A DNA stretch of 60,471 nucleotides. Source: an uncultured Lentisphaeria bacterium (GTDB lineage: Bacteria > Verrucomicrobiota > Lentisphaeria > Victivallales > UBA1829). The stretch covers positions 1 to 60,471 of the forward strand of contig CASDPB010000089.1 of the NCBI GenBank assembly GCA_949282305.1. Direction: 5' to 3'. Positions 20,830 through 28,302 of the stretch are shown piece by piece. The notes beneath the pieces are model-generated. The model saw only the letters and a program-made list of their open reading frames with translations, did not search any database and had not been told where the DNA came from. Every line of letters begins with the position of its first letter. Position 1 is the first letter of the stretch. Position numbers and translations under genes: made by a program.

Positions 20830-21345
20830 TCAGACTGCCTCCCATGCTTCGGAAAATTCCTTGTCGGCGAACATTTCGGCAAGCCCGGATATCTGGGAGA
20901 GGCGCAGAACCTCGTCCGGCTCCATTCCAAGTTCGCGGCTGATCCTGACGTCGCTCCAGTTGCGCCGCTTCAGTTCGATCACAATATCGCTCATTGCGGC
21001 GATCTCGTGTCTGCCGCGGGCACGATTGTGCCGGATCGTGGAGGCAATCCGGTCATTGCGGTCCGTGCGGTCCTGATTCACAATCACAATCGGGAGATAT
21101 TCCATGCCCAGTTTTTTCCCGACAAGATGCCGATGAAATCCGTCGATGACCTCATAATGATCCTCGGTGCGCCAGCAGACGATCGGCTGGGTGAAGCCGT
21201 CGGATTTGATCGACAGCTCCAGCAGCTCCATTTCAGGAGGAGCCACCGTATTCGGATTGTAATCATTCGCCTGCACCTCCGAGGCAGGCACCCAGATCAC
21301 ATGAGACACCGGGTGTTGTGCAGTCCAGCCCATATTTCCTTCCAT
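20830..21345 (-). CDS. ParB-like nuclease-domain protein (IbrB-like)
   Basis: A 171-residue protein with an N-terminal ParB/Srx-type domain: NDYNPN, FTQPIVCW and IDGFHRHLVGKKLG (68-80), the last corresponding to the GxRR-type phosphate or CTP-binding region. A helical C-terminal part with RNHRNS-like and SDVRISRELGMEPDEVLRL suggests a helix-turn-helix. It resembles E. coli IbrB, the partner of IbrA, which activates prophage-linked genes. GAGGAGGG lies five bases before the ATG. The start overlaps the 3' end of the PP-loop gene by 49 bp, so the two are coupled. It is not the chromosomal ParB: too short, and no ParA is near. Confidence 0.8.
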   Translation of the reverse strand: MEGNMGWTAQHPVSHVIWVPASEVQANDYNPNTVAPPEMELLELSIKSDGFTQPIVCWRTEDHYEVIDGFHRHLVGKKLGMEYLPIVIVNQDRTDRNDRIASTIRHNRARGRHEIAAMSDIVIELKRRNWSDVRISRELGMEPDEVLRLSQISGLAEMFADKEFSEAWEAV

Positions 21346-22535
21346 AATTCCCTCCTCTTTGCCATAAGTTTCTTATATTTTTCATAAGATCCGCTCTTCG
21401 TCTGAGAGAATGACAGACCTTTGCACCAGTAGTCATTCCTCAGCAGTGTCTTTGCAATCCGCGTCCAGCTTGGCGTCTTCCTGTCCGTGACGCTTCCCTC
21501 ATCGGGAATTCCGTCGGGATACCCCCGCGTGGAATACCATTTCAGGAAAACGCTGATCTTGTTTTCGTAATGTTCCCTTGTCCGGGGCGGCATGGAAGCC
21601 AGCAGAAGTTTGGAAAAACTTTCCCATGTATGCCCCTCCGGTTTGCTGATCTTCAGATTGCCGGTGATATTCCCGTGCTCCCTGCAGTAAAGCGCCCCCT
21701 GATTCGCGCCGTTCACGCGCGCAACGACACGGGACCATGTTTCCGGCTCGATCAGATGAAACAGCCACAGCCCCTTTTTCTGATCGTCGCCGTAAGGCTG
21801 GCAGATGCGCATCTGGTGAATTGAAAGTCCCGCCTGGTACATCCGGTCATACAGCCGGTTGTAGGGCAGTTTGTATTTGCCGAGATAAATCCAGTCGTCC
21901 TCGGTGCGCCAGTCGTAAATCGGGTAAATATTGTAAAGATTTCCGCCACACCATGTCGTCCATTTTCTGTCCCGGAAATATGAGTTCCGGTGCATTGTAA
22001 TGGCACTGAAGCGGCTCAGGCTTTCCGCCGTGCGAATGCCGACAAGACATGCCGTCAGACTGTCGCCCCCGTACCATTTCCCGAATTGCGGCACAAATTC
22101 TTCAAACTCCATTCCCTTGTGGAAAAACGGGAAATAGTTCTCATCCGAGATCGCGCACTCCGGCATCGGTCGGATCCAGTCCTTCTCACGGTCCTTGTCC
22201 CAGCAAATCCAGTGCGGCTCAAACTGGGAGACCGCATTGCGCAAATGCAGCGGCAGGCAAATCCAGAACAGTTCGATATGCTCCGCATACAGCCTGCAGC
22301 ATTCGCTGATATGATCAATCGTAAGTTTGTACTGTCCTTCCAGGTCGATGAACAGGATTCCGACTTTGCGCTTCCGCCGAATCGCCTCTTCCATTACGAG
22401 ATGCAGCATGCACGTGCTGTCCTTGCCCCCGGAAAAGCTGACATAGATTTTCGGAAAGGAATCGAAGACCCAGGCAACCCTTTCCCGGGCGGCCTCCAGG
22501 ACATTCTTTCCTATGAAACGCTTCTGTCCAGGCAT
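21297..22535 (-). CDS. PAPS-reductase-like PP-loop protein (IbrA-like, DUF3440)
   Basis: A 412-residue protein. The N-terminal adenylate-binding PP-loop FSGGKDSTCMLHL (SGGKDS 35-40) is followed by the PAPS-reductase fold (VGILFIDLEGQYKLTIDHI). The C-terminal half is rich in Trp and Cys (CLVGIRTAESLSR, YPIYDWRTEDDW) and is typical of the IbrA/DUF3440 group, not of sulfate-assimilation CysH. It probably adenylates or transfers sulfur to a nucleic-acid substrate, but the reaction is not known. It overlaps the upstream unknown gene by 25 bp and the ParB-like gene by 49 bp, so all three form one translational unit. No sulfate-assimilation genes are near. Confidence 0.82.
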   Translation of the reverse strand: MPGQKRFIGKNVLEAARERVAWVFDSFPKIYVSFSGGKDSTCMLHLVMEEAIRRKRKVGILFIDLEGQYKLTIDHISECCRLYAEHIELFWICLPLHLRNAVSQFEPHWICWDKDREKDWIRPMPECAISDENYFPFFHKGMEFEEFVPQFGKWYGGDSLTACLVGIRTAESLSRFSAITMHRNSYFRDRKWTTWCGGNLYNIYPIYDWRTEDDWIYLGKYKLPYNRLYDRMYQAGLSIHQMRICQPYGDDQKKGLWLFHLIEPETWSRVVARVNGANQGALYCREHGNITGNLKISKPEGHTWESFSKLLLASMPPRTREHYENKISVFLKWYSTRGYPDGIPDEGSVTDRKTPSWTRIAKTLLRNDYWCKGLSFSQTKSGSYEKYKKLMAKRRELWKEIWAGLHNTRCLM

Positions 22536-23446: not shown

Positions 23447-23487
23447 TTCATATCCGCCGGACAAGGCGGATAGAAATGGAGCATCCT

Positions 23488-23724
23488 ATGTCACTCGGTC
23501 TTACAGAAATTCTTCTTATTTTTGTTGTGATTCTTCTTATTTTCGGTGCAAAACGGATTCCTGAAATTGCCCGTGCGCTCGGACGCGCCAGCCATGAATT
23601 CAAGAAAGCGAAGGATGAAATCATCAGTGAAACCGAAGAACTGAAAGACGCCGCTGAAAAAAGGGCGGCACTGGAAGATCAGGCAGACAAAAAGGGCAAA
23701 GACAAGAAAAACAACTCCGAATGA
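23488..23724 (+). CDS. tatA: Twin-arginine translocase subunit TatA
   Basis: Pore-forming Tat subunit. A 78-residue protein with one N-terminal membrane helix (LGLTEILLIFVVILLIFGAK split across residues 3-22), the conserved FGAKRIPEIARALGRA hinge and amphipathic helix, then a long charged Lys/Glu-rich tail. The frame also allows an ATG at 23476; the second ATG at 23488 is preferred because GGAG lies 6-7 bases before it and TatA proteins begin just before the helix. First gene of the operon; tatC follows after 15 bp. There is no separate tatB, as in the minimal TatAC systems. Confidence 0.93.
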   Translation: MSLGLTEILLIFVVILLIFGAKRIPEIARALGRASHEFKKAKDEIISETEELKDAAEKRAALEDQADKKGKDKKNNSE

Positions 23725-23739: not shown

Positions 23740-24495
23740 ATGAGTGACACAAAGGAACTTTCCTTTCTGGAACATCTGGATGTTTTCCGCGGCGTCCTGT
23801 TCAAAATCATCGGAACTTTCTGTTTCCTCTGCATTCCCGCGTGGTTTTGCGCGCCCTATATCATGAAATGGCTGCTTGCATTCGCAACGCCGGAAGGGTT
23901 CAAGCTGCATTACTTTTCTCTGATGGAACCCTTTTTCGTTCAGTTGAAAGTCATGCTGACGCTGGCGATCTTTGTCTCTCTGCCGTCTACCGCATACTAT
24001 CTCTGGGAGTTTATCGCGCCGGGGCTGACCGAACTGGAACGGAAAAGAATCCGTCCGCCTCTGCTGCTGAGTTTTTTTCTCGCCGTTGCCGGAGCCTTAT
24101 TCGCAATACTGCTGATTGTGCCGGTCATCGTCCGCTTTTCCCTTTCCTTCCAGACGGAAGGCATGGAGCCGGTCATCGGAATTGAGAGTTTTGTTTCAAT
24201 GATGCTGCTGTCCGCGCTTGCCTGCGCGGCTTTGTTTCAGTTCCCGGTACTGCTTCTGATTCTGCTGTCCCTCGGCATTATTGATATTGCCTGGGTGCGC
24301 AGACAGCGTGCCGTCGTGCTTGTTGTGATTCTGATTGTCGCGGCGGTTGTGACGCCGCCGGATATATTCAGCCAGCTGATGGTGGCGGTGCCGACTTATC
24401 TGCTGTTCGAGGCAAGTCTCCTGCTTTTCCGTTTTTACAGGAAACCGGATGACAGTGCGAAGATCTATGAAGAAGAGTCAAAAAAGGAATCATAA
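23740..24495 (+). CDS. tatC: Sec-independent translocase TatC
   Basis: Receptor subunit that recognises twin-arginine signal peptides. A 251-residue protein with six membrane helices. The signature N-terminus ELSFLEHLDVFRGVLF (family: HL.ELR.R) and FVQLKVMLTLAIFVSLPSTAYYLWEFIAPGL in two parts match TatC. Downstream within 15 bp comes a protein with a clear Tat signal, then a ferredoxin with an internal Tat-like motif. This translocase is therefore encoded with its own substrates. Confidence 0.95.
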   Translation: MSDTKELSFLEHLDVFRGVLFKIIGTFCFLCIPAWFCAPYIMKWLLAFATPEGFKLHYFSLMEPFFVQLKVMLTLAIFVSLPSTAYYLWEFIAPGLTELERKRIRPPLLLSFFLAVAGALFAILLIVPVIVRFSLSFQTEGMEPVIGIESFVSMMLLSALACAALFQFPVLLLILLSLGIIDIAWVRRQRAVVLVVILIVAAVVTPPDIFSQLMVAVPTYLLFEASLLLFRFYRKPDDSAKIYEEESKKES

Positions 24496-24510: not shown

Positions 24511-25470
24511 ATGGACAGACGTGATTTTCTGAAAACCACCGCCGCGCTTGCCGCCCTGGGGGCTGCGGCCAAAGCCGGCAGACTGCTCGCCGCCCCGCCC
24601 GCGGAAAAGAACAGTGCTCCCGTCGCGGGGACAGGCATCCCCGACATGGTGGCGATCAGAGGCGGAGAGCCTGCGCAGATGTTTGATCTCGGAATCAGGG
24701 AATTCGGCGGAATGCGGAAATTTGTCAAAAAAGGACAGTCTGTCGTCATCAAGCCGAACATAGGCTGGGACAAGACGCCGGAATATGGCGCCAATACGAA
24801 TCCCGATCTGGTCCGGCGCATCATTGAGCATTGCAAAGAGGCGGGCGCATCCGAAATCTATGTGTTCGACACGACATGCAGCCCGTGGAACCTGAGCTAC
24901 AAGAACAGCGGAATTGCGGATGCGGCGGAAAAAGCCGGCGCAATCGTGGTCGGCGGAGACAGCGCCAAGGACAGGGCATATCTGGAAAACAACTATGTGG
25001 AAGTTGAGATCCCCGGCGCAAAACGCCTCAGGAAGATGATGCAGCACCGTCTCATCAGGGAGTGCGATGTCTTCATCAATGTCCCCGTCCTGAAACATCA
25101 CGGCGGGGCGCATATGACCTGCTGCATGAAAAATCTGATGGGGACGGTCTCCAAACGCACCCAGCAGTATTTTCATGGCAATGATCTTCACCAGTGCATT
25201 GCCGAATGCTGCGCTTTCCGCAAACCGGATTTGAATGTGGTGGACGCCTATCGCGTCATGACGAAACGCGGTCCGCGCGGAGTGGATCTGAGCGATGTCG
25301 TCATCATGAAATATCAGATGATCGGCACCGATCCGGTTGCGCTTGACACTGCCGCGGCACGCCTGATCAAATTCAATTTAAGCAGAATCGGGCATATCCG
25401 CATCGGTGAATCGCTCGGAATCGGAACAACCAGACTCAATACCCTGAATATCAGGCGGATCACGGTATGA
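24511..25470 (+). CDS. Tat-exported DUF362-domain protein
   Basis: A 319-residue protein with a textbook Tat signal: DRRDFLKTTAALAALGAAAK, then an Ala-rich h-region ending near AGRLLAA. The mature part is a DUF362 domain (VVIKPNIGWDKTPEYG, PVLKHHGGAHMTCCMKNLMGT, DAYRVMTKRGPRG). DUF362 members are often iron-sulfur or redox-related and of unknown reaction. This one has no CxxCxxC ferredoxin cluster of its own, so it may take electrons from the multi-cluster protein encoded next, which it overlaps by ATGA. Probably periplasmic. Function not assigned. Confidence 0.85.
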   Translation: MDRRDFLKTTAALAALGAAAKAGRLLAAPPAEKNSAPVAGTGIPDMVAIRGGEPAQMFDLGIREFGGMRKFVKKGQSVVIKPNIGWDKTPEYGANTNPDLVRRIIEHCKEAGASEIYVFDTTCSPWNLSYKNSGIADAAEKAGAIVVGGDSAKDRAYLENNYVEVEIPGAKRLRKMMQHRLIRECDVFINVPVLKHHGGAHMTCCMKNLMGTVSKRTQQYFHGNDLHQCIAECCAFRKPDLNVVDAYRVMTKRGPRGVDLSDVVIMKYQMIGTDPVALDTAAARLIKFNLSRIGHIRIGESLGIGTTRLNTLNIRRITV

Positions 25471-26957
25471 TGCTCCGGAAAAAACTGCCGTGGTGGCGTA
25501 TTCTGCGGATTCTGGCTGCAGGCGTTGTTCTGACTGCACTGATGGGGGGAACCTGGTTTTTCCCGGGATATGAAAGCGTATTTGTCTCGCAGTTCGGTTC
25601 CAGTCTGCTTGCCCTGTTTTCCTCCTTTTCACTGGGGGCGTTCCTTGCCGTTGCCGCAATCGCGGCAGTGACTCTGCTTGTCGGCAGACTGTATTGTTCG
25701 ATTCTGTGTCCGCTTGGAATTCTCCAGGATCTCATGATGGTTTTCAAGAGGCGTTTTGCTTTTCAGGGAACATACCGCCGGATCAAATATCCGGTATTTT
25801 TTCTTGTGGCGGGGCTGACATGTGCAGGGCTGATGTTTCCGCTTGCACTCCTGATGCCTTCGGCAAACTTCGTCGCCATTGAAAATCATGTATTCCGGGA
25901 GGTCTGCGCGCGGGTCTTCTATCTTTTTGACATGCCGGTCGGGGAAGTGACGATTCATCCCGTTCTCGGCGGATTCATCAGTGCGTGGACGGTCTTCATT
26001 CTGCTTGCCATCCTGGTGCGCTGGCGCGGCAGAATTTACTGCAATACACTTTGTCCCGTCGGCGCCCTGCTCTCGTTGATTGCGAAATTTTCTTATTGGA
26101 AAATCACGCTGACAGACCGCTGTGTCCGCTGCGGCGCATGCGAACGTGTCTGCAAGAGCGGATGCATCGACGTGAAAAACAGGCGTGTCGTTAATGAGAA
26201 CTGTGTCATGTGCCTGAACTGCATCGACAAATGCAAGTTTTCCGCTTTGAAGTTCGGGCATGAGAAGCCGGTGCCGGAAAACAGGGAAACGCAGTCAGAG
26301 GCAAGACGTGATTTTCTGATCGCCGGCGGCGCTCTGCTGGCGGGACTGGCGGCAGGGAAAGCGGCACATGCGCTTGGCGGCAGGAAGATTCCGGCGCATG
26401 ATTATGCCCCGGCAATGCCTCCCGGTGCGGTCTCCTACGACCGTTTCGCTTCCCGTTGTGTTGCCTGCGGGCTTTGCATTGCCGCATGCAAGGGGCATGT
26501 CCTTGCCCATGCGACGGATCAATATGGACTGCGCGGTTTTCTCCAGCCTTACATGCGCTTCTCCGGCGGAGCCTGCGAATTCAACTGCAATGAGTGCATC
26601 AAGGTGTGTCCCTGCGGAGCGCTGGACAAGCTGACTCCCGATGAAAAAAAACGCTGGCGCGTCGGTCTTGCGCGGTATACGGAGACCCGCTGCATCTCCT
26701 ATATCGACGGCACCGACTGCGGCGCATGTGCGGAGCATTGTCCGGTTGGGGCACTTGAAATGGTTCCCTTCAAGGAGACGACGATTCCGAAAGTGCATGA
26801 GAATCTCTGCATCGGCTGCGGCGCATGTGAAAACATCTGTCCCGCCCGTCCGGTCAAGGCAATCCGTGTCAACGGCTCCGCAGAACAACATTTTGTAGAA
26901 AAACCCGTCGCAACGCAATCGGCTGTCATTGCCCCCGAAGAGGACTTCCCATTTTGA
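25467..26957 (+). CDS. NapH-NapG-like fused membrane polyferredoxin with internal Tat signal
   Basis: A 496-residue protein. Residues 1-210 hold about four membrane helices with the NapH-type cysteine motifs LYCSILCPLG (77-81) and IYCNTLCPVG (192-196). Residues 219-256 carry two 4Fe-4S sites (C219, C222, C225, C229 and C246, C249, C252, C256). At 279-305 comes ARRDFLIAGG plus a hydrophobic stretch, an internal twin-arginine signal. The rest resembles NapG: about four more 4Fe-4S clusters (C331-C341 onward, ending CIGCGACENICP). Electrons would pass from the quinol pool or cytoplasm to the periplasm. The internal Tat element would let the C-terminal half be exported folded. It starts at ATGATG over the previous stop codon. 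Confidence 0.85.
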   Translation: MMLRKKLPWWRILRILAAGVVLTALMGGTWFFPGYESVFVSQFGSSLLALFSSFSLGAFLAVAAIAAVTLLVGRLYCSILCPLGILQDLMMVFKRRFAFQGTYRRIKYPVFFLVAGLTCAGLMFPLALLMPSANFVAIENHVFREVCARVFYLFDMPVGEVTIHPVLGGFISAWTVFILLAILVRWRGRIYCNTLCPVGALLSLIAKFSYWKITLTDRCVRCGACERVCKSGCIDVKNRRVVNENCVMCLNCIDKCKFSALKFGHEKPVPENRETQSEARRDFLIAGGALLAGLAAGKAAHALGGRKIPAHDYAPAMPPGAVSYDRFASRCVACGLCIAACKGHVLAHATDQYGLRGFLQPYMRFSGGACEFNCNECIKVCPCGALDKLTPDEKKRWRVGLARYTETRCISYIDGTDCGACAEHCPVGALEMVPFKETTIPKVHENLCIGCGACENICPARPVKAIRVNGSAEQHFVEKPVATQSAVIAPEEDFPF

Positions 26958-27457
26958 TGAATACAAAAAGGATTTTTCTGATCGGCGTCCTTTGTGTCCT
27001 GGCTGTTCTGACGCTCATTCCGCTGGTTGTGCCTGTCTTCGTCCCGTGGACAACACTGAACTGCCGGAGCCTCTATATCGACATACGGTCCGGCAGGACA
27101 CGTTTTGTGCGTCACTTGTATTTCATTCCGATCCGGGATGAGGTACACGAAACCTCCTGCTCGCGCTCTTTATTCCCGAATCGGGATTATCCCCCGCCGG
27201 ACTGGAAGATGGATACAAGGCTTTCCCCGTATCTCCGTAATTCTCCGCATTACGCACTGCATGGCGCCGCGACAACCATGAGAATGATCGATATGGAAAG
27301 TGAACTTTCCGAAGAGGAAAAAAACACATTGAGAAGACAGATCCTCCATCTCTGGCAGAGCGGGAAAGGAAAGCATGAAGCAAAAAACCTGCTCTTGGAA
27401 ACTGCGGAACGGAAAACAAATCAAACCGGACAGGACAGAAAGGATGTTCCGAAATGA
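26957..27457 (+). CDS. Small membrane-anchored protein of the tat operon, unknown function
   Basis: A 166-residue protein I do not recognise. One strong membrane helix (about residues 7-27) is followed by a hydrophilic, probably periplasmic domain with a CSRSLF segment and a charged helical C-terminus. It lacks a haem or iron-sulfur motif. The ATG at 26957 overlaps the ferredoxin stop as TGATG; a TTG one codon earlier is less likely. Its 3' end overlaps the aldo/keto reductase start by ATGA. Translational coupling on both sides argues that it is real and part of the same system. Confidence 0.7.
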   Translation: MNTKRIFLIGVLCVLAVLTLIPLVVPVFVPWTTLNCRSLYIDIRSGRTRFVRHLYFIPIRDEVHETSCSRSLFPNRDYPPPDWKMDTRLSPYLRNSPHYALHGAATTMRMIDMESELSEEEKNTLRRQILHLWQSGKGKHEAKNLLLETAERKTNQTGQDRKDVPK

Positions 27458-28302
27458 AAAACAAGACTTTGAAGTGCGGATTTTCAATGCCGGTTCTCGG
27501 TATGGGAACATGGCGGATGGGCGGCAGTATGGAACGCGATTCCCGGAATGACGACGCCGGGCAGATTCAGGCTTTGAAAACCGGTTTGGACTTGGGCTTC
27601 AATCTGATTGACACGGCGGAATCCTATGCGGACGGCAAGGCGGAGGAGCTGGTTGGAGAGGCGATCCGGGGCTATGACCGCGGCAAACTGTTTTTGACGT
27701 CCAAGGTCTGGAAAACCCATGTTGCCTATGATGATGTGCTGCGCGCCGCGGAAAACTCGTTGAAGCGGCTCGGCACGGATTATCTTGACCTGTATCTTTA
27801 TCATCAGGTCAACAACGAGGTCCCGCTGGAAGAGACGATGCGTGCGTTCGACCGTCTGGTATCGGAAAAGATGGTGCGTCATATCGGAGTCAGCAACTTC
27901 GCGCTGGAGCGGTTCAAACGAGCCCAGGCGTGCGCGGAACACAAGATCGTGGTCAACCAGATTCATTACAGTCTGTCGATGCGCGAACCGGAAAACGAAC
28001 TGCTTCCCTGGCTTCAGGAAAACGACGTGATGATTCAGGCATGGCGTCCTCTGCGCGGTGTTCCCGACTGCGCACTTTTGAACGATCTCTGCGCCAGATA
28101 CGGCAGAACGAAACCGCAGATCGCGCTGAACTGGCTGCTCATGCAGAAGAACATTGTCACGATCACAGCGTCCTGTTCCGCGCGGCATATTCAGGACAAC
28201 CTGGATGCCGCCGCGTTTGAACTGGTGCCCTCCGATGTGGAACTCCTGACGCGCGATTTTCCGGAAAAGAGACTGATTTCCGATGCCGTTCCCCTGAGCT
28301 GA
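27454..28302 (+). CDS. Aldo/keto reductase
   Basis: A 282-residue NAD(P)H-dependent (beta/alpha)8 reductase. The catalytic tetrad is visible: Asp50 in NLIDTAESY, Tyr55, Lys near LFLTSKVWKTH, and His in DLYLYHQV. The C-terminal cofactor segment TITASCSARHIQDNLDAA fits the family. It is coupled by ATGA to the preceding membrane protein and is the last gene of the tat operon. It has no signal peptide, so it is cytoplasmic and unlike the Tat substrates before it. The carbonyl substrate is unknown. Confidence 0.88.
   Translation: MKNKTLKCGFSMPVLGMGTWRMGGSMERDSRNDDAGQIQALKTGLDLGFNLIDTAESYADGKAEELVGEAIRGYDRGKLFLTSKVWKTHVAYDDVLRAAENSLKRLGTDYLDLYLYHQVNNEVPLEETMRAFDRLVSEKMVRHIGVSNFALERFKRAQACAEHKIVVNQIHYSLSMREPENELLPWLQENDVMIQAWRPLRGVPDCALLNDLCARYGRTKPQIALNWLLMQKNIVTITASCSARHIQDNLDAAAFELVPSDVELLTRDFPEKRLISDAVPLS

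Follow-up and report, generated by a model that had tools for sequence, protein, structure and literature searches.

A fused NapH-NapG-like polyferredoxin with a predicted internal Tat signal, encoded in a tatA-tatC-DUF362 operon of a Lentisphaeria bacterium

The stretch of DNA from an uncultured Lentisphaeria bacterium that was analysed in this study (60,471 nucleotides, referred to as the window) encodes at 25467..26957 of its forward strand a polypeptide of 496 residues in an intact open reading frame, in which a NapH-like four-helix part with cytoplasmic iron-sulphur clusters is joined to a four-cluster NapG-like part. This fusion protein probably carries electrons outward through its clusters, with its outer half presumably being exported in a folded state by the Tat system. 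It is a further member of a kind of polyferredoxin that has been described since 2017 (Tooke et al., 2017), and the new element concerns its context, namely a tatA-tatC-DUF362-fusion operon and a DUF362 neighbour with resemblance to LarA.

The distinct parts of the protein are reflected in its sequence. The NapH-like membrane part (25491..26027, +), defined by a match to PF12801, an AlphaFold2 model and hydropathy, contains helices at residues 9-30, 56-72, 104-120 and 167-187 and a CX3CP motif (77/81), and it is followed by a second CX3CP motif (192/196) and a cytoplasmic two-cluster ferredoxin (26040..26234, +) with cysteines at positions 219/222/225/229 and 246/249/252/256. At the junction (26292..26378, +), the residues A279-R280-R281-D282-F283-L284 and an adjoining hydrophobic stretch constitute a putative internal Tat signal and a fifth transmembrane helix (TMD5, residues 276-304), as judged from conservation, hydropathy and charges, and the model. 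The predicted exported NapG-like part (26457..26840, +), delineated by profile matches and alignment, harbours four 4Fe-4S motifs with cysteines located between residues 331 and 458 (331-341, 370-381, 409-425 and 448-458). Searches against Pfam identified Fer4_5 and many Fer4 models, and the Rieske Tat-signal model PF10399 reaches residues 273-300 with a score below its cut-off, while ferredoxin domains were the sole matches obtained in a Foldseek search with the model.

An initial annotation had proposed a fusion of NapH-like and NapG-like halves in a single polypeptide, which is borne out by the intact reading frame and by the retention of its cysteines. The search for full-length homologues that it had suggested provided 37 sequences for alignment, originating from Lentisphaerota (whole genomes) and from Bacteroidales and Gastranaerophilales (genome contigs). 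Both CX3CP motifs, the 16 cysteines of the outer clusters and a junctional [RK]R (RR in 30 and KR in seven cases) are found in all 37 homologues and the eight inner cysteines in 34. The homologues in L074-L076 do not contain the inner ferredoxin but they retain the CX3CP pairs, the RR-helix and the outer clusters. Within an alignment of 34 sequences, with 31-80% identity to the fusion protein, R281 is invariant and F283 is conserved in >90%, whereas the rest of the linker is variable, which argues against a junction motif that has arisen by chance. Each of the mentioned short fusions (L074 4397-5683, L075 3122-4342, L076 7722-8996) adjoins a gene coding for a DUF362 protein with Tat signal, and a similar DUF362-fusion pair is contained in L120 and L121. 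The homologues on plasmid records of Parabacteroides and Bacteroides are annotated just as '4Fe-4S binding protein' or '4Fe-4S dicluster domain-containing protein'. In G001:C13, two open reading frames overlapping by four bases were considered as a natural split that would prove a free-standing Tat signal. This interpretation was rejected in favour of a frameshift, either in the gene or in the assembly, because the last cysteine of the inner clusters resides in the second frame.

The topology of the protein was deduced from hydropathy, charges and the AlphaFold2 model. The number of Lys and Arg residues amounts to 4, 5 and 17 in the presumed cytoplasmic segments and to 0 and 2 in the periplasmic segments, and these loop charges fit an arrangement with the N-terminus inside and the C-terminus outside. 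In the model (pLDDT 87.8, pTM 0.84), a single helix spans residues 276-304 at the junction. The described features support the predicted placement of both halves on opposite sides of the membrane, as the initial annotation had anticipated. In most homologues, TMD5 is less hydrophobic than TMD1 (with a median KD hydropathy of 1.56 compared to 2.18), and the 20 residues following it contain 2-5 Lys or Arg. TatC was detected in 27/27 genomes containing the fusion compared to 4/14 genomes without it (41 genomes; Fisher p=9e-7, with genomes treated as independent). This distribution, together with the conserved junction and its invariant arginine, supports the proposed location of a candidate Tat signal at residues 279-305, and we thus infer Tat-dependent export of the C-terminal domain, a process that was demonstrated by others for a relative.

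The fusion is the fourth gene of an operon that also encodes components of this export system. It is preceded by tatA (23476..23724, +; TatA_B_E 64.4 bits; TIGR01411 61.7, cut-off 53.9), by tatC (23740..24495, +; PF00902 162 bits; TIGR00945 135.9, cut-off 132.7), for which no second copy was found in the genome, and by a gene coding for a DUF362 protein with N-terminal Tat signal and predicted LarA fold (24511..25470, +; PF04015 178.9 bits; PF10518 24.6, cut-off 22.7), whose stop codon overlaps with the ATG of the fusion (ATGATG). The same order of the four genes is found in the relatives L021-L024, and a pair of a Tat-signal DUF362 protein and the fusion in 17 of the 27 relatives carrying the latter. 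On its 3' side, the fusion is followed at 26957-28302 (+) by genes with overlapping ends encoding a 166-residue protein without family match and a 282-residue aldo/keto reductase without Tat signal, latter of which is kept in L021 and was not found in L022-L024. Elsewhere in the window, at 20830-22535 (-), a ParB_N-domain protein adjoins a PAPS-reductase/DUF3440 protein, a pair that we take to resemble IbrA/IbrB.

A relationship of the DUF362 protein to LarA, the lactate racemase, is indicated by structure prediction and conserved residues. In a Foldseek search of the PDB with its AlphaFold2 model (pLDDT 86.4), the first 19 matches are LarA or LarA-like proteins (prob 1.00, E 1.9e-6 to 5e-4, TM 0.38-0.51), and both families are assigned to the same Pfam clan, CL0471 (PMC11770544). 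A sequence search of the PDB with DUF362 returned no useful match. Six columns are invariant in 23 diverse DUF362 sequences (K81, K195, H197, K207, G211 and H222). In LarA, Lys184 and His200 bind the nickel-pincer nucleotide (NPN) and His174 is catalytic (PMC7583248), with the roles of His174 in catalysis, of Lys184 as NPN tether and of His200 as Ni ligand also described in PMC12611868. Based on invariance and on their register in hhalign, His197, Lys207 and His222 of the DUF362 protein (codons within 25099..25176, +) are the equivalents of His174, Lys184 and His200. This register was obtained upon comparison of broader DUF362 sets with 12 LarA sequences (E 1e-3 and 9e-6, probability 22% and 83%), with LarA numbering transferred by spacing from the invariant H172/K182/H198. 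For Tat-type DUF362 proteins alone, the profile comparison to LarA was not significant (probability 2%) and the broader sets were thus needed. None of the invariant columns of the 23 DUF362 sequences matches Arg75 or His108 of LarA and, in the region covered by hhalign, the place of His108 is not occupied by a histidine, so that a net redox reaction rather than racemisation would be expected. The LarA profile passes its cut-off on some DUF362 genes. In DUF362 genes that are not paired with a fusion, the NPN-type motif is found in 14/14 checked and an own ferredoxin, either inserted or appended, in 12/14, whereas the DUF362 proteins encoded next to a fusion do not contain a ferredoxin of their own.

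Gene content provides a further link to the cofactor. The home genome, whose nearest named relatives are assemblies of Victivallales and Lentisphaeria, contains LarB, two copies of LarC and LarE, and LarA is absent from it. Such a combination has been noted on a larger scale, with about 15% of surveyed genomes seeming to make the nickel-pincer cofactor without LarA to use it (PMC11796402). Among 41 genomes, LarC is found in all 17 containing the DUF362(Tat)-fusion pair compared to 14 of the other 24. A survey of the phylum covered 143 well-assembled genomes, 86 of which are without LarA. In these 86 genomes, DUF362 and LarC are found together in 25, DUF362 only in five, LarC only in eight and neither of them in 48, corresponding to a p-value of 3e-10 for co-occurrence when the genomes are taken as independent, a value that is inflated by the many members of a single genus. 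In this LarA-less genus, DUF362 takes the place of LarA and directly precedes larB-larC-larE (L118 1910-5787, L119 2248-6086) or larC-larE (L117 2823-6911). There are also genomes containing DUF362 without LarC (the Bacteroides ihuae control, G089, G094, G110, G129 and G151) and others containing LarC in the absence of both DUF362 and LarA. In G008, G010, G015, G017 and G023, LarA was detected and LarC was not found, which might mean that the gene escaped detection where assemblies are incomplete or that the cofactor has a different origin. The LarA fold, the His and Lys residues, the presence of LarB, LarC and LarE without LarA, the co-occurrence of DUF362 with LarC and their gene clusters make DUF362 proteins candidates for the missing NPN proteins other than LarA, and our search of the literature found no proposal of NPN in DUF362 or of an exported NPN enzyme. 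We thus tentatively propose, at somewhat less than an even chance, that DUF362 proteins are the NPN clients in larB/larC/larE genomes without larA, and that the one described here would be exported in a folded state with its cofactor by the co-encoded TatAC to exchange electrons with the polyferredoxin, which would constitute an extracytoplasmic NPN redox enzyme that is wired to the cell interior.

Different interpretations of the fusion have to be weighed against the described reading. If TMD5 were a plain membrane anchor or a helix inserted by Sec and the RR-motif incidental, no Tat export would take place. Such a possibility, which we regard as improbable, would be in line with a TMD5 that is sufficiently hydrophobic to be called as a helix and with the weaker Tat motif KR in seven Prevotella-type homologues, but it would not account for the retention of RR within a variable linker, the presence of TatC in every genome with a fusion, where its gene is often adjacent, or the reporter data published for a relative (PMC5449189). 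It appears even less plausible, to an extent where we assign it hardly any weight, that the protein would act as a Nap-type quinol dehydrogenase feeding a periplasmic nitrate reductase. Although the NapG and NapH models account for the best local similarity, their scores are far below the curated NCBIfam equivalog cut-offs (NapG, residues 273-467, 79.4 bits compared to 269; NapH, residues 56-263, 67.9 bits compared to 213; and a further score of 60.6 compared to 234). Moreover, the home genome, with 96% completeness, contains neither a molybdopterin oxidoreductase (PF00384, the family of NapA) nor a recognised menaquinone prenyltransferase, and a Nap function was thus rejected by profile scores and gene content. 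The sole UbiA-family protein found in this genome is nearest to EboC, with a score below the cut-off, and is neither MenA nor MqnP, and several further genomes bearing the fusion, such as G012 (98% completeness), were without UbiA match. A quinol donor is therefore unsupported and, of the earlier assignment as a NapH-like quinol-oxidising part, the resemblance to NapH persists while the oxidation of quinol finds no support in this organism. We consider a cytoplasmic ferredoxin as donor to be at least as likely.

A larger share of doubt concerns the partner of the conduit, whose main clients could be other Tat-exported redox proteins, above all two-cluster aldo/keto reductases, with DUF362 either acting in maturation or adjoining the fusion without a functional link. 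Fusions in Prevotella, other Bacteroidales and Gastranaerophilales adjoin aldo/keto reductases that combine a Tat signal with two clusters in a C-terminal domain, frequently in the company of tatA or tatC, and many of the Bacteroidales homologues are located next to such reductases with Fe-S motifs and not next to DUF362, the partner of the fusion thus being variable. The second fusion of the home genome (G000:C34:23618-31282; L058 5619-13283) shares an operon of the order PFD-larC-larE-tatA, containing the second tatA of this genome, with three Tat aldo/keto reductases with C-terminal 4Fe-4S motifs, and in L066 a broken fusion gene is followed by larB, larC, tatC and a reductase. At the locus described here, the overlapping upstream gene encodes DUF362, which is paired with the fusion in the majority of relatives bearing it, and no Tat aldo/keto reductase adjoins the counterparts of this copy in L021-L024, which makes reductases as main clients possible but rather unlikely. 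Since larC and larE flank the reductases in L058, we have also considered the use of NPN by these enzymes, which was weakened by the Prevotella reductase loci, where no larC is found nearby, and by G010 and G015, which are without any. The presence of NPN in DUF362 is itself challenged by DUF362 genomes that do not contain LarC, by genomes in which LarC is accompanied by neither DUF362 nor LarA, by the missing equivalents of Arg75 and His108 and by the modest TM-scores and hhalign probabilities, and its partnership with the fusion by the alternative reductase partners.

In the mechanism we propose for the Tat-exported polyferredoxin, Sec would insert helices 1-4, with the first ferredoxin domain remaining inside, and the weakly hydrophobic TMD5 preceded by RR would be passed on to Tat, which would move the folded four-cluster domain to the outside, as was shown by others for a relative. 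Electrons would presumably enter from a cytoplasmic donor, either ferredoxin or quinol where an organism has one, and pass along the clusters before reaching an exported partner. In the tatA-tatC-DUF362-fusion operon, this partner would most likely be the Tat-exported DUF362 protein, which in light of its computed fold and residues probably carries NPN. As a whole, a transmembrane conduit belonging to the dual Sec/Tat polyferredoxins and partnered by an exported DUF362 protein with a probable NPN has in our view about equal chances of being right or wrong. DUF362 proteins with a LarA fold, the cofactor-binding lysine and histidine, and relatives in larBCE clusters would be a named candidate for NPN users in LarA-less genomes, and the polyferredoxin beside DUF362 suggests an NPN chemistry beyond racemisation.

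Among known systems, the domain make-up and cluster motifs resemble NapG and NapH of the periplasmic nitrate reductase, which are two separate proteins, whereas they are joined in one polypeptide here. The initial annotation was mistaken in knowing of no NapH-NapG example, since Tooke et al. (2017; eLife, PMC5449189), in their account of polyferredoxins, describe the protein MLMS-1 Q1NSB0 with five TMDs and an RR-motif before TMD5, refer to it as NapH fused to NapG, show that reporters attached behind TMD5 are exported in a Tat-dependent manner and mention homologues in several phyla. Features of the polyferredoxins described there are found here in a polytopic start combined with a cofactor-binding C-terminal domain, a conserved twin-arginine before a weakly hydrophobic and positively trailed last TMD, and four outer besides cytoplasmic clusters. 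By this description, the fusion is like MLMS-1 Q1NSB0 and its relatives in its five TMDs, inner ferredoxin clusters, RR preceding TMD5, four outer clusters, low hydrophobicity of TMD5 and positive charges after it. It differs in its inner clusters, with three being credited to MLMS-1 Q1NSB0 compared to two clear clusters and two CX3CP motifs here, and in its tatAC-DUF362 operon, which is not mentioned in their polyferredoxin account. Actinobacterial Rieske proteins share the polytopic Sec-inserted start and the Tat dependence of the last helix and cofactor domain but, unlike the fusion, they contain three TMDs and a single Rieske cluster. The DUF362 protein is akin to LarA and nickel-pincer enzymes in its predicted fold, clan, equivalents of three functional residues and genomic tie to larB, larC and larE, and distinct from LarA in its Tat signal, shorter length, absent equivalents of Arg75 and His108 and pairing with a polyferredoxin. 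With its operon-linked tatA and tatC, this member from Lentisphaerota joins the few known families that require both Sec and Tat.
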